Virus record (IMG/VR): IMGVR_UViG_3300023284_001445
Span: 1-20,246 of that record
Reading direction: 5' to 3' (one strand)
Source: a virus
DNA length: 20,246 bases
Position 1 is the stretch's first letter. Each line of letters opens with the position of its first letter. Position numbers and translations under genes: made by a program. The notes beneath the pieces were generated by a model that saw nothing but the letters and a program-made list of their open reading frames with translations, was not told the origin of the DNA and did not search any database. This document shows positions 2,468 to 18,339 of this stretch, piece by piece.

Positions 2468-2760
2468 CGGTAGTCGAGGTTGGCAAGGTAAACGGCTACT
2501 ACTGTTCAGTCTGTGAACAGACCACCTGGACAGTCCACGTGGACGTCGGAACCGCTCCTCCATTCATAGCCTGCCGCGCTACATTCTTCTGTCCCGGCCA
2601 GGCTGTGAGCATGAAGTACCGAAATGTCCCGTCAAGCGTGGCTCCTGAATGGGAATGGTACAAGCCTGGCTCTAAGGGCCTTAAGGGCTTCTCACCCGAG
2701 GTACGAGAACACTGTAAAAAAGGCGGTTTACTACTCCGGCCATTTCAGGAGATGGCATGA
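2464..2760 (+). CDS. Small four-Cys (zinc-ribbon-like) protein, 98 aa
   Basis: Cys14 and Cys17 (YCSVC) and Cys37 and Cys43 (ACRATFFC) have the layout of a zinc ribbon, so a structural zinc is likely. The rest is polar, with a Trp-rich stretch (EWEWYKPGSKG) and a C-terminal helix. The start ATGA overlaps the stop of the tagged 48-residue gene, and its own TGA overlaps the next ATG in the same way. It has no N-terminal tag. Phages often encode such small zinc proteins. No function can be assigned. Confidence 0.65.
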   Translation: MTVVEVGKVNGYYCSVCEQTTWTVHVDVGTAPPFIACRATFFCPGQAVSMKYRNVPSSVAPEWEWYKPGSKGLKGFSPEVREHCKKGGLLLRPFQEMA

Positions 2761-2948
2761 TCACCCGCGCCCGCGCTGTACAAATACTCCAGGAGCACGG
2801 GACCGGTCCCAACATTCCCACAGCATGGTTCCCCGAGGAAAACAATTATGACCCCACCAGCACTTTTGATGAGATAGTCGGGGTGAAAGAGGAATACCAG
2901 TTCATGGAAGTATTGGGGTTTTTGGGGTACTGCTGCCCACACTGTTAA
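2757..2948 (+). CDS. Small protein ending in a Cys cluster, 63 aa
   Basis: The frame starts in an ATGA overlap with the previous stop and ends two-thirds of the way to the next tagged gene. An N-terminal helix (ITRARAVQILQEHG) is followed by an acidic, aromatic middle and a second helix, and the protein closes with GYCCPHC. The final Cys-Cys-Pro-His-Cys could bind a metal or form a disulfide or dimer contact. No family recognised. Both boundaries are set by neighbours, which supports the call. Confidence 0.6.
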   Translation: MITRARAVQILQEHGTGPNIPTAWFPEENNYDPTSTFDEIVGVKEEYQFMEVLGFLGYCCPHC

Positions 2949-2957
2949 GGAGAACAA

Positions 2958-3212
2958 ATGGCTAAGGCCGTTGGCACGAGGCGTAAGCTCGGCTCCCGAC
3001 GCGTAGAGCCTCAATCTATAGATGACATGGTAGCCTCGCTGCGTAAGAAAGGCTTTACTGTCAGACGTGCCGCTGGCTTTTCTGGTCTACATTTTGAGGT
3101 TATTAGCCCAAAAGGCGGGCTCCATGGAAACGCTTTTGCGATCCGCCGCCCCGAGCAATTTGCTAAGATCCTTGCTGGCGAGGATAGATTCTTCAACCCT
3201 CGGAGGGTATAA
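2958..3212 (+). CDS. Tagged small protein 4 (MAKAVGTRRK start), 84 aa
   Basis: GGAG at 2949-2952 stands five bases before the ATG. The tag is MAKAVGTRRKLGSRRV, with Thr where most copies have Lys or Arg. A helix follows (IDDMVASLRKKGFTV), then an alternating beta pattern through HFEVISPKGG, a helix with EQFAKILAG, and a basic end NPRRV. The segment SPKG-x-L ... RPEQFAKILAG aligns by eye with SPKGEL ... NAVRFAKDLLV of the tagged protein at 4275, so these two probably share a domain as well as the tag. That domain could be a small alpha/beta nucleic-acid binder; this is a guess. Confidence 0.72.
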   Translation: MAKAVGTRRKLGSRRVEPQSIDDMVASLRKKGFTVRRAAGFSGLHFEVISPKGGLHGNAFAIRRPEQFAKILAGEDRFFNPRRV

Positions 3213-10008: not shown

Positions 10009-10854
10009 TTACCTCGTATCCAGGGTCACGTAGGTGATCTTCGGATCCAACGCTCCATCCCCTGCCACCATCACCCGCACTCGCACCGCCCCGATATCAG
10101 GCAGGAACCTTGGTGTACTGACCCACTGGGTAGATTGATTAGCGAAAGCCGATACACTCTCACCTATATGAGGCGTCAGGAACACCCACCGGCTACCCAG
10201 GCTATTCCAGTACTCGACTCTCAACTTCACCACGTCTTGACTGTCAATATTATGCGCCCACTGAGCCCTCACCGCTTGGGCTACACTGAGGTCCAGAACT
10301 CTCCTGCTAAGTCTCCGGGGAACCTCTGTGCCTGCACTCCCGGCGTCCGTGACCTCAATCCCCTCTGCCGCGAAGAGGAGAGTATAAGGGACAATAATCC
10401 CTGCGATGCCCGGCGCCGCGTTGATGTAGGTAATAGGGCCTGGTGGTCCGGTTCCTCCCGCAGGGCCCTGTGAACCCCCCTCTCCCTTCTCTCCTCTCTC
10501 TCCGGCGCCAGTCTCACCAATGGGCCCAACCTCACCCTGTGGTCCCGCCTCGCCTATTGGGCCGGCCGCGCCGGTCTCTCCTCTCGGCCCCACCCCACCG
10601 TCCCCTCCCACGTCCCCTTTTGGCCCTGGAGGCCCAACAACATCTACTGCCTCACCCTGCGACCCCTTCTCACCTACAGGGCCTTCTACCCCCACCGGTC
10701 CAATCGGTCCTGGAGGGCCTGTACAATATCCGCCCAATAGGAGCAGGATCACCCCCACTAAGGCTAGGAAAATACCGGCCTGGAGGGCGCGTGATAGGTT
10801 GTCTGCTCTACGTTCAATAGGCGACATTTGTGGTGGTTGTGCTGTCTCAGCCAT
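10009..10854 (-). CDS. Membrane-anchored collagen-like protein, 281 aa
   Basis: A polar N-terminus of about 24 residues leads into a membrane helix (residues about 25-43, ending GGYC). A collagen-like Gly-x-y region then runs from residue 46 to 141, rich in GPxG and GExG triplets. The repeat phase breaks twice, at residues 67-74 and 116-118. The C-terminal 140 residues form a non-repetitive domain, probably beta-sandwich, with WAHNIDSQDVVKLRVEYWNS and GAVRVRVMVAGDGA. Phage collagen-like repeats usually occur in tail fibres; the membrane helix here points instead to a cell-surface display protein, or less likely a virion-membrane protein. Its ATGGCTGA start overlaps the upstream stop by eight bases. 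Confidence 0.8.
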   Translation of the reverse strand: MAETAQPPQMSPIERRADNLSRALQAGIFLALVGVILLLLGGYCTGPPGPIGPVGVEGPVGEKGSQGEAVDVVGPPGPKGDVGGDGGVGPRGETGAAGPIGEAGPQGEVGPIGETGAGERGEKGEGGSQGPAGGTGPPGPITYINAAPGIAGIIVPYTLLFAAEGIEVTDAGSAGTEVPRRLSRRVLDLSVAQAVRAQWAHNIDSQDVVKLRVEYWNSLGSRWVFLTPHIGESVSAFANQSTQWVSTPRFLPDIGAVRVRVMVAGDGALDPKITYVTLDTR

Positions 10855-12155: not shown

Positions 12156-15100
12156 TTATATTTTGTCCATTTCCAACCAGTTCGGCCCTGCCTTTACCTC
12201 CACAGTGATTGGAACCGAGATACGGACTACATTCTCCATAACTCCGACAACCCACTTAGCCATCCCGTCGACCACCATCTTCGGGCACTCCCATACCAAC
12301 TCGTCATGCACCTGTAGGAGCCACCACAAGAAGGCTGGGGAGCTCCTGTGTAGCTTCCCCATAGCCAGCTTAATAACGGCCTGTGCTGAACTTTGCACCG
12401 GCATATTACACGCCTGTCTCTCTCCTGCCGCCCTTATCCGCCTAATAGGACTCTGAACCTCTGGAGTGAACCGGACCCGCCCCACTAGATCCTGAACATA
12501 ACCATTTAACCTGGCAAAGGACTTCACCCCCTCTTGATAGGTTTTAAGCTCCGGCCTCAGTTGATAGTAATTTTTAATAAAATCCCGGCACCGATCCAAA
12601 TCCCAGCCGTCCGCCCCTTCCCTGGCCATCTGAGTCTCCAATCCGTACTCGCTCTCTAGGTAGATAACTCCGAAGCCGATATTCTTGGTGGCCTTATACT
12701 CAACCGAGTTACTATCCACGTCATCCAGGGGGATGCCGAATATCTCCGACATAGTCTCTTTGTGGATATGCCGCCCCTCTCGGAACAGCCGAATCATCGA
12801 CTCGCATTTAGAAAGGTGCGCTACAATTCTCATCTCGATTTGACTGTAATCGGCCGAAAGTAGTACATTCCCCGGCTCACAGATATACCCCTTCCTGATC
12901 AGCCTCCCATCCTCACTTCTAGCCGGTATCTGCATGGAGTTGAAATCCGCCATGGACCATCTACCCGTAGCGGTCCTAGTGACCTTGATCTCTCCGTGGA
13001 TACGGTTATTTTCGTCCACCGCAGCAGGCAGGGTTTCGCAGAAGCTATCTCTCAGGTGGGTGAGGTGACGGTATAGCTCCACTTCAGGAACCACGGGGTG
13101 TTTGATCTTGGCCAACTCCCCTTTAGCCACGGAAGGAAGGCCAGTCTCGGTATACCTACTCGGTTTGAAGCCAAGCCGTTCAAAAAATAGCACTCTAAGT
13201 TCGTTGTCACTATTCGGGTTGAATCTGAATTTCCCACTCCCCCGGCACCGACATGCTTCAGGGTTGGTGTGCGCCGGTGTACTGGCCGTCCCCCAACACT
13301 CAGGACAGGCGAGATTAGCCGTGTCGAATATAATTTCCGCCTGCCTCTCCATTCGCTCCAAGAAGCTCCGGGATAACATGCGTAGATAGTCCGGGTCCAC
13401 CTTAAAACCCCTCTGCATCATCTCTAGAGCGACGGGGAGGGTGGCCTTGTCCATTTCGTAGGTAAACTGTAATCCGGCCTCTTGGATCATGGGCCAGAGG
13501 ACAGACCGTACCCTGCCGGTAGCATCGGCATCCCGGCTGGCGTAATAAACCGCCTTCTCCCTAGGGATATCATCCATAGTCCCGTCCGGCATCATCCCCA
13601 TCACCGCCTCAACCTCTTCCCTCTCTCTCGGGTCTAAGGAATACCAGCGGTTATGAGCGTCTACCGGGCCGCTCTCCAGTACCTTTCCTCCCACCACATC
13701 CGCGACGATTCCTTTCATCTTCCGGGTAATGTGGTGAGGGGTGGTACGCTTGACCTCTAACTTCCCTCTGGTCTTACTCCAAGTCATATCCTCCAGAATT
13801 GGAGGGGAGGGCCAGGCTACTTGGTCCGGGGACCAGTCGTTGCCTTCCAGCCTGTACTTATAGACTCCCTTCTCCACTCGCTCTTTCTTGACCTTGTGAG
13901 CCCCGTAGGCGGTTTTTTTCAGGAGGGTGAGGGTTTTACCCAAATCTTCCTGGTTGACCGGTAGGATAGCCCCTGTGTCCATGCAGGGAGGCTCTTTGTC
14001 CTTGTAGAACCATCCCCCTGAACCGATACACGCCCACGTGGCAAGAAATTTCCTTTTCTCCTCTGTAGTTTCAAATTCCACAGGCATTCCAGGTTTGAGA
14101 GAGATGGCGGTGTTCAGGTAATTCAAGGCTTTCTCTTTTCGGTACGGTGAGACGGTCTCGGTGTAGCTCTCCATCTCCATCCCACAGAAGCGCCAAGCAA
14201 GCTCTTTCAAACCTTGGGGGAGACCGAGAAGGTAGGCCATGAGCATGGTATCGTCGGTATTTTTCGGGAGGGAGAGGAATTGAGCGTCGTAGAGGTAGTT
14301 GTGGACGGTGACCCTAGACTGGCTAACTTTTTCTGCTTCCTGCTCCCACTTATCGGGAAACATGAAAAGGCCTGTCCCTGGATGGCAAGATGTTTGTACG
14401 CTCCAGAGTTTCCCGTCCACGGTCTCTGTGTCTAATGCCCAATCAAAAGGCTCTATATTCTCGCCTTCAGGGAGTTGGCGATAGGACGGCTCGGAGTACT
14501 GGTCTACCCTCTGAAAATCCTCCACACTCTTCCCCGCGACCAACCCACCTAGGACTTTGAAATCAGACTGAATCTCCCGCATTAAGGAGGTGTTGTAGAA
14601 TCCGGCGGCAGGGTGAAACACTGGGAGCAGAACCACCCTAGGTTCTGACTTGACTCCTTGGAGGCCGTCTAGCTCGGTCCCTCCCCCGGACACAGACTCT
14701 ACATATTCTGACTCTGTTTGAGCCATTTCTTCTCCCTTTTCTGTAGGCTGTGTTACTTCCATCGTAGGCGTGGCCTTTAGGACAGTGAGTTTTTCGTGCC
14801 TCTCGGTGAGTCTTGGCATCAACGGCGTCGTACATGTTGTCGGAATGGCTTCCGAGGTAGAGGTGTGTTGGTCTAACGCAAGGTGGGTTGTTACATCGGT
14901 GGAGGATCCACTGCCCTGCTGGGATGGAGCCATAGGTAATCTCCCAGGCAACCCTATGGGCCTTTCGTAATTTTCCTGTCTTTCCCCCGTACTGGAAGGC
15001 CCCATATCCGAATGAGAATCTTCCGGCCTGCCACTCCCAACAATCCCCTGTTGAGTCAACCTTTGACCAGAAGCTATTTTCCATGTTGGTCCGTCTTTGA

Positions 15101-15548
15101 GGATTGGTATTCCATGGACGTGCTCAACAGTCAAACCCTCCCCTAAGAAATACTCAATCGCCACCTTCCCCATAGGGACTATGATTTCCGGCTTCACTAG
15201 GCTTAGCTCCAAGTCCAACCAGCGCTGACCACAGAACCTCGCCTCCTCTCTCGTGGGCGTCCTATTTCCCTTGGGGCGGCATTTAACACAATTGGAGATG
15301 AGACAATCTTCCCTGGCTATACCAATCGATCGTAAGAGAGAATTTAGGTACTGCCCGGCGTCCCCAGTGAACGGCTCACCCTTTTCATCCTCATTCTTGC
15401 CTGGGCCCTCACCGATTAGAGCGACCTTGGCATTCATGGGGCCTACAGCAGGCACCGGCCCCGCGCAGTCTCGTCTTAGAGGGCAGTCGGTACAGCCTCG
15501 GTTGAGGGCGTAGAGGCCAGAGGAGACGGTATTAGCTATTGTCGTCAA
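12156..15548 (-). CDS. Uracil-DNA glycosylase (family 4)-DNA polymerase A fusion, 1130 aa
   Basis: Residues 1-150 match family-4 uracil-DNA glycosylases: GEGPGKNEDEKGEPFTG (46-62), RPKGNRTP (91-98) and iron-sulfur ligands Cys19, Cys22, Cys90 and Cys106. The last glycosylase motif, LLPVFHPAAGFYN (307-319), is separated by a low-hydrophobic insert (about 155-303) that is another frame of a nested HNH gene. A 3'-5' exonuclease domain follows with Asp373/Glu375 (DTE), Asn417 and Asp421 (VHNYLYD), and Tyr669/Asp673 in YYASRDAD; about 250 residues between the second and third motifs exceed the usual spacing. Family A polymerase motifs are DYSQIEMR (900-907), KNIGFGVIY (955-963, Phe959) and VHDE (1080-1083). 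A Cys cluster (Cys748, 751, 766, 768) interrupts the region before motif A. All catalytic residues seem present, so this is the likely replicative polymerase, coupled to uracil detection. Confidence 0.93.
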   Translation of the reverse strand: MTTIANTVSSGLYALNRGCTDCPLRRDCAGPVPAVGPMNAKVALIGEGPGKNEDEKGEPFTGDAGQYLNSLLRSIGIAREDCLISNCVKCRPKGNRTPTREEARFCGQRWLDLELSLVKPEIIVPMGKVAIEYFLGEGLTVEHVHGIPILKDGPTWKIASGQRLTQQGIVGSGRPEDSHSDMGPSSTGERQENYERPIGLPGRLPMAPSQQGSGSSTDVTTHLALDQHTSTSEAIPTTCTTPLMPRLTERHEKLTVLKATPTMEVTQPTEKGEEMAQTESEYVESVSGGGTELDGLQGVKSEPRVVLLPVFHPAAGFYNTSLMREIQSDFKVLGGLVAGKSVEDFQRVDQYSEPSYRQLPEGENIEPFDWALDTETVDGKLWSVQTSCHPGTGLFMFPDKWEQEAEKVSQSRVTVHNYLYDAQFLSLPKNTDDTMLMAYLLGLPQGLKELAWRFCGMEMESYTETVSPYRKEKALNYLNTAISLKPGMPVEFETTEEKRKFLATWACIGSGGWFYKDKEPPCMDTGAILPVNQEDLGKTLTLLKKTAYGAHKVKKERVEKGVYKYRLEGNDWSPDQVAWPSPPILEDMTWSKTRGKLEVKRTTPHHITRKMKGIVADVVGGKVLESGPVDAHNRWYSLDPREREEVEAVMGMMPDGTMDDIPREKAVYYASRDADATGRVRSVLWPMIQEAGLQFTYEMDKATLPVALEMMQRGFKVDPDYLRMLSRSFLERMERQAEIIFDTANLACPECWGTASTPAHTNPEACRCRGSGKFRFNPNSDNELRVLFFERLGFKPSRYTETGLPSVAKGELAKIKHPVVPEVELYRHLTHLRDSFCETLPAAVDENNRIHGEIKVTRTATGRWSMADFNSMQIPARSEDGRLIRKGYICEPGNVLLSADYSQIEMRIVAHLSKCESMIRLFREGRHIHKETMSEIFGIPLDDVDSNSVEYKATKNIGFGVIYLESEYGLETQMAREGADGWDLDRCRDFIKNYYQLRPELKTYQEGVKSFARLNGYVQDLVGRVRFTPEVQSPIRRIRAAGERQACNMPVQSSAQAVIKLAMGKLHRSSPAFLWWLLQVHDELVWECPKMVVDGMAKWVVGVMENVVRISVPITVEVKAGPNWLEMDKI
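14638..15084 (-). CDS. HNH endonuclease nested out of frame in the polymerase gene, 148 aa
   Basis: This same-strand gene lies wholly inside the glycosylase-polymerase gene in a different frame. The N-terminal part, DCWEWQAG ... YGAFQYGG ... KAHRVAWEITYGSIPAG, then ILHRCNNPPCVRPTHL and SHSDNMYD, is the HNH_3-type domain of free-standing phage homing endonucleases, with catalytic His in ILHRC and structural Cys residues. A second motif, THCPKGHAYDGSNT with CRVC near the end, is a common C-terminal zinc module in these enzymes. The N-terminus (ENSFWSKVDSTGDCW) is typical, so the protein looks complete and intact. No strong binding site precedes the ATG. It spans almost exactly the insert between intact glycosylase motifs, so it probably arrived as a mobile gene. 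Confidence 0.85.
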   Translation of the reverse strand: MENSFWSKVDSTGDCWEWQAGRFSFGYGAFQYGGKTGKLRKAHRVAWEITYGSIPAGQWILHRCNNPPCVRPTHLYLGSHSDNMYDAVDAKTHREARKTHCPKGHAYDGSNTAYRKGRRNGSNRVRICRVCVRGRDRARRPPRSQVRT

Positions 15549-16598: not shown

Positions 16599-16837
16599 AG
16601 TAATCTTAACTTCAGCCTGTAAATGGATCTCTCAGTCACGGAGAATCTGATTGCTGCCTCCCTAACGTTCAGGCTCTCCCTCACCATAATCTCAAGTACC
16701 TCTCGATCCTTGGCCTCTCTCCGATACTGCGCGGCACCAACGGGATTATCGTATTTGCATTCGGGCAGAGGGCAGTCTTGGCAGGTAGGAGAAACGTCAC
16801 ATCCACCGTCTATATGGGAGGTTTCATACACTCTCAT
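16595..16837 (-). CDS. Cys-cluster and helix-turn-helix protein, 80 aa
   Basis: Cys13, Cys19, Cys22 and Cys27 (CDVSPTCQDCPLPECKYDNP) form a compact metal-binding cluster. Residues about 45-78 read as a helix-turn-helix (EVLEIMVRESLNVREAAIRF, then SVTERSIYRLKLRLL), like the recognition part of a sigma-factor region 4 or a recombinase resolving domain. Small phage proteins with a similar cluster and helix-turn-helix are common and are usually guessed to be regulators. The start ATGA overlaps the ERCC4 gene's stop. The role is inferred. Confidence 0.68.
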   Translation of the reverse strand: MRVYETSHIDGGCDVSPTCQDCPLPECKYDNPVGAAQYRREAKDREVLEIMVRESLNVREAAIRFSVTERSIYRLKLRLL

Positions 16838-17550
16838 CTTGGCCCTAGCTCCCGGTCCACGCTTTCAGTTATAACCTTTCCTATTCCCTTGATAGCTAGC
16901 CAACGCATTTTTGGGGCGTTGATCATCTTTCGAATACCGTCCTCTTTAAATTCCTCCTCGATCCAGCCGCTTCTCTTCCAGTCCACACCCTCTAGCTCCT
17001 TGGCCATTCGGCGCAGTAGGGAGGGCGGCTGGAGGTTGACAGCATTGGGGCGGCGATGGAATCTCAACAGGCTGTTGTGTTTCTCTGGCGGCTCTTGAAA
17101 TAGCTCGTAGAGATCGGTGATCACCCTGGCTGTCTCCCTAACGGTGTGGGTGCGTTTGACCAGCACCCCGCAGTACAAAGAGAGTTCGTTTAGGTACTGG
17201 TCTAGCCTTTTGTAAGTGTGCCCTGTACTAGTCCACCATCCCCTTTCATTCCGGTACTCAATGATGCCGTCAAGGGCCTCTCTCATATAGCCCTCTGGTA
17301 TCTCAAGCACGGTCACGTACCATTCAAACCCCGCCTCCCTGGCCCTCCCTACCTGGTCGATATGTCGCCCGTCATCTAGGCATTTCAGCATGTCCAGAAG
17401 CTTCTTTCGCTCTACACACGACCAGACGATCTCATTGTCCGTCCAGTAGCCTTGGAATATAGCGTCACCGTAGGGTATAGGGCAGGGGATAACAGATGGA
17501 ATGTGCGGGATTAGGTCTTGATCGTTGGGGGCGGAGGTCAGGTAGATCAC
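16834..17550 (-). CDS. ERCC4-type structure-specific nuclease, 238 aa
   Basis: The catalytic pattern of the XPF/Mus81 ERCC4 fold is present: GD at 28-29, the signature ERKKLLD at 47-53 (E-R-K-x-x-x-D), and a strand FEWYVTVLE with Glu83. The following part is helical with Trp/Arg (IIEYRNERGWW). The end (NAPKMRWLAIKGIGKVI) resembles a helix-hairpin-helix DNA-binding element, the usual partner of this nuclease. Family members cut branched DNA such as flaps and forks. The start is GTG at 17550, after the methyltransferase stop, with AGGGG upstream. It would resolve replication or recombination intermediates for the polymerase and the Sak4-like ATPase. Confidence 0.8.
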   Translation of the reverse strand: MIYLTSAPNDQDLIPHIPSVIPCPIPYGDAIFQGYWTDNEIVWSCVERKKLLDMLKCLDDGRHIDQVGRAREAGFEWYVTVLEIPEGYMREALDGIIEYRNERGWWTSTGHTYKRLDQYLNELSLYCGVLVKRTHTVRETARVITDLYELFQEPPEKHNSLLRFHRRPNAVNLQPPSLLRRMAKELEGVDWKRSGWIEEEFKEDGIRKMINAPKMRWLAIKGIGKVITESVDRELGPR

Positions 17551-17553
17551 TAT

Positions 17554-18339
17554 TCATTCGCCCCTAAGAAACCTTGCAACCACTGCCGGTACGATTCCAT
17601 TCCCAAGGGTTCTAAGGCGGTCCACCCGATGGGCAACCCCATCATCCACTCGCCGAAGAGTGGAAAAGGCTTTTCCTGCCACAGATACCGGGTCCAGTCG
17701 TGTAATGTGGTTGTAACTTGATTGCCCGTCCTTTTGTCGTGAGGTTTCATCCCAGGAACCCAAGGGTTTCCATGACTGTCTACCAGATTGTTCAGGTCTA
17801 TACAGTTGCTGGTCAATTTGTTGGCATGAAGAGTAGGCAAGTAAAAACCACCGCTCTCTAAGGTGGGGAGCTCCTGCTTTGGCAGCGGAACACAAACCCC
17901 AAACTGCAGAGTACCTTGCCTCGGAAAGACCCCCAATAACTTCCGCACTATATGGCTCAGCCCCGTCAACCAATCCCCTGACATTCTCCAACAAGACGTA
18001 CTTCGGTCCCACTTCCCGTATAGCCCGTAAGGTATCAGGCCAGAGGTTTCTTGAATCTTCTCTTCCAAGACGTTTCCCAGCGTGTGAATGTGGTTGGCAT
18101 GGGAAACCCGCAGTGATGATATCCACCATTCCGGCCATTGGTCGAAAGTTGGCGGTTCGGATGTCCCTGATGATTGGCGCGAAGTCGAGGAAGCCATCTT
18201 GCATTCGTCTCCAGAGAAGGCGTTGACAGTACGGGTCTGATTCCACGTATCCAATGGTCTGAATGGGTACCTTGGCCAATCGCAATCCCAAGGTGAATCC
18301 ACCATACCCAGAGAAAAGACTAAGTTCCCGGAGCCTCAC
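17554..18339 (-). CDS. C5-cytosine DNA methyltransferase, 261 aa
   Basis: The Dcm-family motifs appear in order: motif I LSLFSGYGGFTLGL (7-20), the adenosine-binding acid in VESDPYC, motif IV GFPCQPHSHAG with catalytic Cys81, motif VI LLENVRG (117-122), motif VIII HLRERWF (159-165) and motif X LRTLGNGIVPAV near the end. The target-recognition part between VIII and X is short, about 75 residues, so the protein is at the small end of the family. No matching restriction enzyme is present, so self-protection against host restriction is the likely job. The start is GTG in a GTGA overlap with the ATPase stop. A second open frame lies across it but shows no protein-like features. Confidence 0.93.
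   Translation of the reverse strand: MRLRELSLFSGYGGFTLGLRLAKVPIQTIGYVESDPYCQRLLWRRMQDGFLDFAPIIRDIRTANFRPMAGMVDIITAGFPCQPHSHAGKRLGREDSRNLWPDTLRAIREVGPKYVLLENVRGLVDGAEPYSAEVIGGLSEARYSAVWGLCSAAKAGAPHLRERWFLLAYSSCQQIDQQLYRPEQSGRQSWKPLGSWDETSRQKDGQSSYNHITRLDPVSVAGKAFSTLRRVDDGVAHRVDRLRTLGNGIVPAVVARFLRGE

Follow-up and report, generated by a model that had tools for sequence, protein, structure and literature searches.

A probable homing-type HNH endonuclease gene nested out of frame, with neither intron nor intein detected, in a phage uracil-DNA glycosylase-polymerase gene

It has been assumed that selfish endonucleases residing in protein-coding genes can spare the host protein only by means of an intron or intein. 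How can a complete endonuclease gene then lie within a phage polymerase gene whose own reading frame is nowhere interrupted? The question is raised by the window, i.e. the whole 20,246-base stretch of DNA analyzed here, an IMG/VR virus record that is probably a fragment. Its minus strand carries an ORF of 1130 codons (12156-15548), open from end to end, which encodes a fusion of a family-4 uracil-DNA glycosylase (UDG) and a family-A DNA polymerase (Pfam: UDG, PF03167, E=2.7e-26; DNA_pol_A, PF00476, E=2.3e-87), the same domain architecture as in the polymerase of Thermus phage phiLo (PDB 9qhs) and in the SPO1 group. The N-terminal part of the UDG domain is located at 15129-15446 (PF03167, residues 35-140, with the motif GEGPGKNED) and the polymerase domain at 12171-13226 (PF00476, residues 775-1126). 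The hallmarks of family-4 UDGs are all present, namely the UDG fold, motif A (GE(A/G)PG), motif B (HPA), and four Fe-S cysteines (C19, C22, C90, and C106) that occupy invariant columns in the alignment with relatives. On the same strand, at exactly the coordinates given in the original prediction (14638-15084), a second ORF of 148 aa starts from an ATG with an offset of +2 relative to the host frame. It matches the HNH_3 family over profile positions 1-46 of 46 (PF13392, E=3.9e-13, 49.3 bits against a curated cut-off of 24.8) as well as phrog_826 (E=4.1e-37), is also matched in PADLOC, and ends in zinc-ribbon-like cysteines; a sequence search of the PDB returned no relatives at E<=0.1. Elsewhere in the window, a collagen-like protein with GPxGPx repeats is encoded at 10009-10854 (minus strand).

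The nested ORF separates two UDG segments that are adjacent in relatives, as had been proposed. In the alignment of UDG4-family-A polymerase relatives without the insert, HGIP leads straight to LPVYHPAAG via a short loop (a gap of 0-12 residues), whereas the window protein has about 149 extra residues at this point. The left flank of the insert is formed by the conserved HGIP codons (CATGGAATACCA, 15105-15116, minus strand), the right flank by LPVFHPAAG, i.e. UDG motif B (14601-14627, minus strand). About 30 insert-free relatives were found, 14 of them from the first alignment and the others added later; their identity to the window protein is 53-58% overall and ~47-53% over the best-matching segment, and all close relatives are metagenomic contigs. 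Whole-protein patterns yielded no close relatives, so that alignments were needed to detect them, and bacterial genomes gave ordinary PolA matches only, none of which extended across the UDG part. The alignment places an insert of ~447 nt at 14643-15089 (minus strand, ends +/- ~15 nt). Both of its ends lie within ~15 nt of those of the HNH ORF, and its length is divisible by three because the insert is the HNH ORF. Since no insert-free allele closely related to the window was found, the junctions are fixed only to ~15 nt, and a conversion tract is unreadable in the window. The exonuclease-polymerase part contains another in-frame insert (13818-14096, minus strand), delimited by alignment, that serves as a contrast to the one in the UDG loop: its alternative frames contain stops, and it is an ordinary domain-type insert. 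At the matching position, the relatives L087 and L088 carry a different, winged helix-like insert.

An AlphaFold model of the UDG part (27-row alignment) shows pLDDT values of 92-98 on either side of the insert and of 34-45 within it. The best PDB match of the UDG core is Thermus UDGa (1ui1, 45% identity), and the modeled insert emerges from a beta-hairpin of the UDG domain, so the ~149 residues of host-frame product are predicted to form a disordered surface loop. In keeping with the original prediction, this product is poor in hydrophobic residues (fraction of 0.20 vs 0.33 in the remaining protein).

The host frame corresponds to the +1 frame of the HNH gene and contains no stop across it, while the third frame contains 10. 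About seven stops had been predicted for such a stretch, a figure that proved too high: with real codon usage, 2.4-2.6 are expected (P(0)=0.047-0.063). This null was checked on 137 other HNH genes, in which 702 stops were observed and 618 expected, and where a stop-free +1 frame occurs once (L078) vs 2.9 expected; after calibration, it gives P=0.047 for the window HNH and P=0.034 (~0.035) for a second nested HNH, in relative L175. By itself, the open frame of the window is thus weak, marginal evidence, as had been cautioned; it becomes convincing because of the comparison with homologs and the second case in L175. In the remaining alternative frame of the HNH gene, ~10 stops would be expected, and in both the window and L175 the host frame therefore sits on the quiet frame. 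As a further nested HNH, L059 was considered and rejected; its +2 frame is open, but the gene is GC-rich and the long frame is unlike a real protein. L011, among the 137 HNH relatives, has an open +2 frame scarcely longer than the HNH itself.

A neighboring methylase gene (17554-18339, minus strand) had been named as a reason for this caution, on account of its own long silent frame, yet it is no suitable control. Its second frame (17550-18305) belongs to a kind that is itself stop-poor, with 0-4 stops vs 8-12 expected in the +1 frames of eight phage methylases, and contains methylase-like motifs such as EWMMGLPIGWT. It is probably a real coding sequence, possibly part of a conserved dual-frame methylase overlap. 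An ERCC4-type nuclease gene (16834-17550, minus strand) adjoins the methylase and polymerase genes.

The second case, contig L175 (IMGVR_UViG_3300009602_001438), carries a homologous HNH in the same loop and the same frame, again with an open host frame. Its product is 63% identical to that of the window; the next best match outside the UDG-loop site reaches 45%. Over 138 sites compared between the two genes, there are 49/32/69 differences at codon positions 1/2/3, where HNH position 3 is position 2 of the host frame. This pattern indicates that the HNH frame is constrained, as its proposed role as the ancestral frame implied, and that of the host frame only openness is conserved, not the amino acids. 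These two are the only nested HNHs found in the UDG-polymerase gene. Grouping their host genes as sisters is rejected by an AU test, and insert-free relatives lie between them; in L166, the sister of L175, the UDG loop is occupied by an unrelated insert of 159 nt, and the next relatives, L177 and L179, have none. Judged from these trees and alignments, the distribution of the HNH is disjunct, as for a mobile element or an often-recombined site.

Further in-frame inserts occupy the same loop, with lengths of 159 nt (L166), 216 nt (L170), 120 nt (L176 and L178), and 99 nt (L223). In all six clade lineages with loop inserts, the host frame and a second frame are both open, unlike at the other insertion sites of the gene, where alternative frames mostly contain stops. 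The host-frame products of the six inserts are likewise disorder-like without exception (hydrophobic fraction 0.13-0.23 vs 0.32-0.34 elsewhere). For L166, L170, and L223, the nested frame, picked after inspection as for all the small ORFs, has a protein-like hydrophobic content of 0.38-0.40, and that of L176 is intermediate (0.27). A weak match of the L166 ORF to DUF4177 (E=0.006) stays below the cut-off, and the L166 and L176 ORFs match each other weakly, among 33 records only at the UDG-loop site. For an alignment of the L166, L176, and L170 ORFs, a beta-alpha-beta-beta arrangement is predicted with moderate confidence (core pLDDT ~83-90); a fold search of the PDB gave no significant match, and isolate phages yielded no convincing free-standing counterparts of the small nested products. 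The inserts of L166, L170, and L176 are likely to encode small non-endonuclease genes, while a coding role of the L223 insert is uncertain. In a distant UDG-polymerase gene (L526, ~2647-3000), a 342-nt in-frame insert at the UDG loop has an open +1 frame rich in Cys/His pairs, for which no family match was found.

Turnover at this site appears to be recent. Apart from its 99-nt insert, L223 is nearly identical to the insert-free L099 and L183 (~3.5% differences), and within ~25 nt at either side of the insert it shows clustered, mostly synonymous changes. Such changes are what a short gene-conversion tract would leave; as the insert is not an HNH, they show exchange at the site, not homing of the HNH itself. 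All six alleles with an insert share the HGIP codon GGA, which is absent from at least 17 members of the clade that lack an insert, i.e. from all of those compared (Fisher 1e-5), a link that is only suggestive, as it was spotted post hoc, the rows are related, and some insert-free outgroup genes also have GGA. On a wider and more tentative reading, which we hold to be somewhat less probable than its opposite, the UDG hairpin would be a cassette site at which HNH, DUF4177-like, and other genes are swapped by recombination, each being translated from a second frame while selection keeps the host frame open. If true, a presumed-essential gene would hold interchangeable hidden cargo.

For the window itself, we consider it probable that the insert is an intron-less and intein-less gene of an HNH homing-type endonuclease, or a recent descendant of one, that is tolerated via read-through of the host frame. 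With neither type of element around it, an HNH gene would have entered the phage UDG-polymerase gene at the tip of the UDG beta-hairpin. Ribosomes in the host frame would read through and yield an enzyme of 1130 aa from whose surface the disordered loop projects, and those initiating at the internal ATG (15084) would produce the HNH protein. The gene could persist as the host frame falls on the stop-poor frame of the HNH and leftover stops are selected away. Spread would proceed by cutting of insert-free alleles and copying of the element during repair; the HNH family and the distribution suggest homing into a conserved loop as the likely mode. Expression of the HNH, cutting of empty sites, homing, and activity of the host enzyme are all inferred from sequence. 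Signals for internal initiation differ between the two cases: in L175, a strong Shine-Dalgarno-like GGAGG lies seven bases ahead of the HNH ATG, and in the window only a weak GGA is present, which counts against this reading, as do the lack of direct repeats at the junctions and the small number (two) of nested HNHs in the gene. In the window, a 13-codon ORF (MEYQSSKTDQHGK, 15074-15115, minus strand) begins inside HGIP, and its stop overlaps the HNH start; it might couple translation to the HNH and is possibly a leader or a relic of an earlier occupant. A search for an internal promoter of the HNH gave a chance-level match only, on the opposite strand.

The strongest competitor, still an unlikely one, is a degenerate relic in which the HNH is inactive or unexpressed, the UDG is disabled, and only translation of the polymerase is required. 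The weak ribosome-binding site in the window and a host frame conserved in openness rather than in amino-acid sequence would both fit. The HNH motifs are intact, however, the gene evolves like a coding gene, and the exchange seen between L223 and L099 speaks against a fossilized site. The original prediction had likewise left a choice between a tolerated 149-residue loop and lost glycosylase function; the modeled disordered loop supports the former, and the preserved UDG4 motifs, Fe-S cysteines, and well-modeled core argue against the latter.

Less probable still is a self-splicing intron, of group I or another type, with the HNH as its ORF and the segment removed from the mRNA. Phage group I introns often carry HNH ORFs, and one such intron is known from the polymerase part of SPO1-type UDG-containing polymerases. 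The insert is little more than the ORF, though, leaving scant space for a catalytic core; Rfam scans give no intron hit at the gathering cut-off or even at E<=5, and the RNA folds no better than shuffled sequences (z=0.94). An intron also sits poorly with a host frame that is open across every clade insert. An intron reading was rejected on these grounds, in line with the prediction that no such element is needed.

Equally improbable is that the openness of the host frame is due to chance or assembly error and the product is not one chain, the gene being truly split. For a single case, a P of ~0.05 would allow this, and split versions with stop/start overlaps do exist among the relatives. A zinc-ribbon ORF splits the UDG-polymerase gene of L240 (3965-6314) at the UDG loop; an HNH splits that of L199 (3974-7051) just upstream of HGIP, and another ORF that of L284 (3947-6373) inside or beside the loop. 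Stop and start codons overlap as TAATG in L240 and, for L199, at the first junction. Against a split in the window stands the host frame kept in all six clade inserts; if the nested frames are coding, the product of P(open) over the six is ~1e-6, a value to which L223 contributes no information and for which the frames were chosen post hoc. As a separate observation, conserved motifs in the polymerase of L106 (2760-5720) are set apart by ~304 additional residues (between host residues 953 and 955), which may represent an intein.

Removal by an intein or by translational bypass can practically be discounted: bypass elements can be linked to endonuclease insertions, as in T4 gene 60, but the junctions offer no repeats as matched take-off and landing sites, a 447-nt hop would far exceed the known 50 nt, and the intein reading was rejected as the host-frame product has no Pfam intein match and is predicted to be disordered.

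The preferred reading, a hidden gene tolerated by read-through, has a precedent, and the kind as such is already known. The ShiLan domain is an out-of-frame HNH hidden in the mycobacteriophage DNA methylase gp65, with no intron or intein, an open host frame, a poorly ordered host-frame product, and a disjunct distribution (Arsenault, Gosselin and Gogarten, 2025; PMC11855218); the paper makes no mention of a glycosylase. Its HNH frame was confirmed in the deposited genome (JN020143). All of these traits are shared with the window, and the offset between host frame and HNH is the same as in the window and L175. Similarity between the window and ShiLan HNHs is remote (best E=0.034), which argues for the same kind but not the same lineage. 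The host of ShiLan is a dispensable methylase, that of the window a UDG-polymerase fusion. Unlike ShiLan, the window HNH has an ATG start and the L175 HNH a clear Shine-Dalgarno sequence, and the UDG-loop site also takes other, likely non-HNH inserts. Free-standing phage HNH_3 proteins (PF13392, phrog_826) agree with the window HNH in family and size but are encoded by ordinary separate genes. In Aeromonas phage Aeh1, the intergenic homing endonuclease gene mobE leaves the host gene nrdA as two chains. As proposed for the window, a homing endonuclease is found in a nucleotide-metabolism gene with no intron, but the window host remains one frame; within its own gene family, a split of this sort is seen in L199 and L240. 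What appears to be new is the UDG-polymerase host, with two HNH cases at one contested site in non-sister hosts, and, likely, the non-endonuclease occupants of that site.

A hidden gene tolerated by read-through would thus be a third way for a selfish endonuclease to spare its host gene, documented to date in phage methylases. A case in a replicative polymerase gene, found twice at one site, makes the idea testable, as a single gene family offers empty sites, a near-identical pair with and without insert (L223/L099), and split-gene alternatives. Hidden genes such as the nested HNH will be missed by annotation pipelines.
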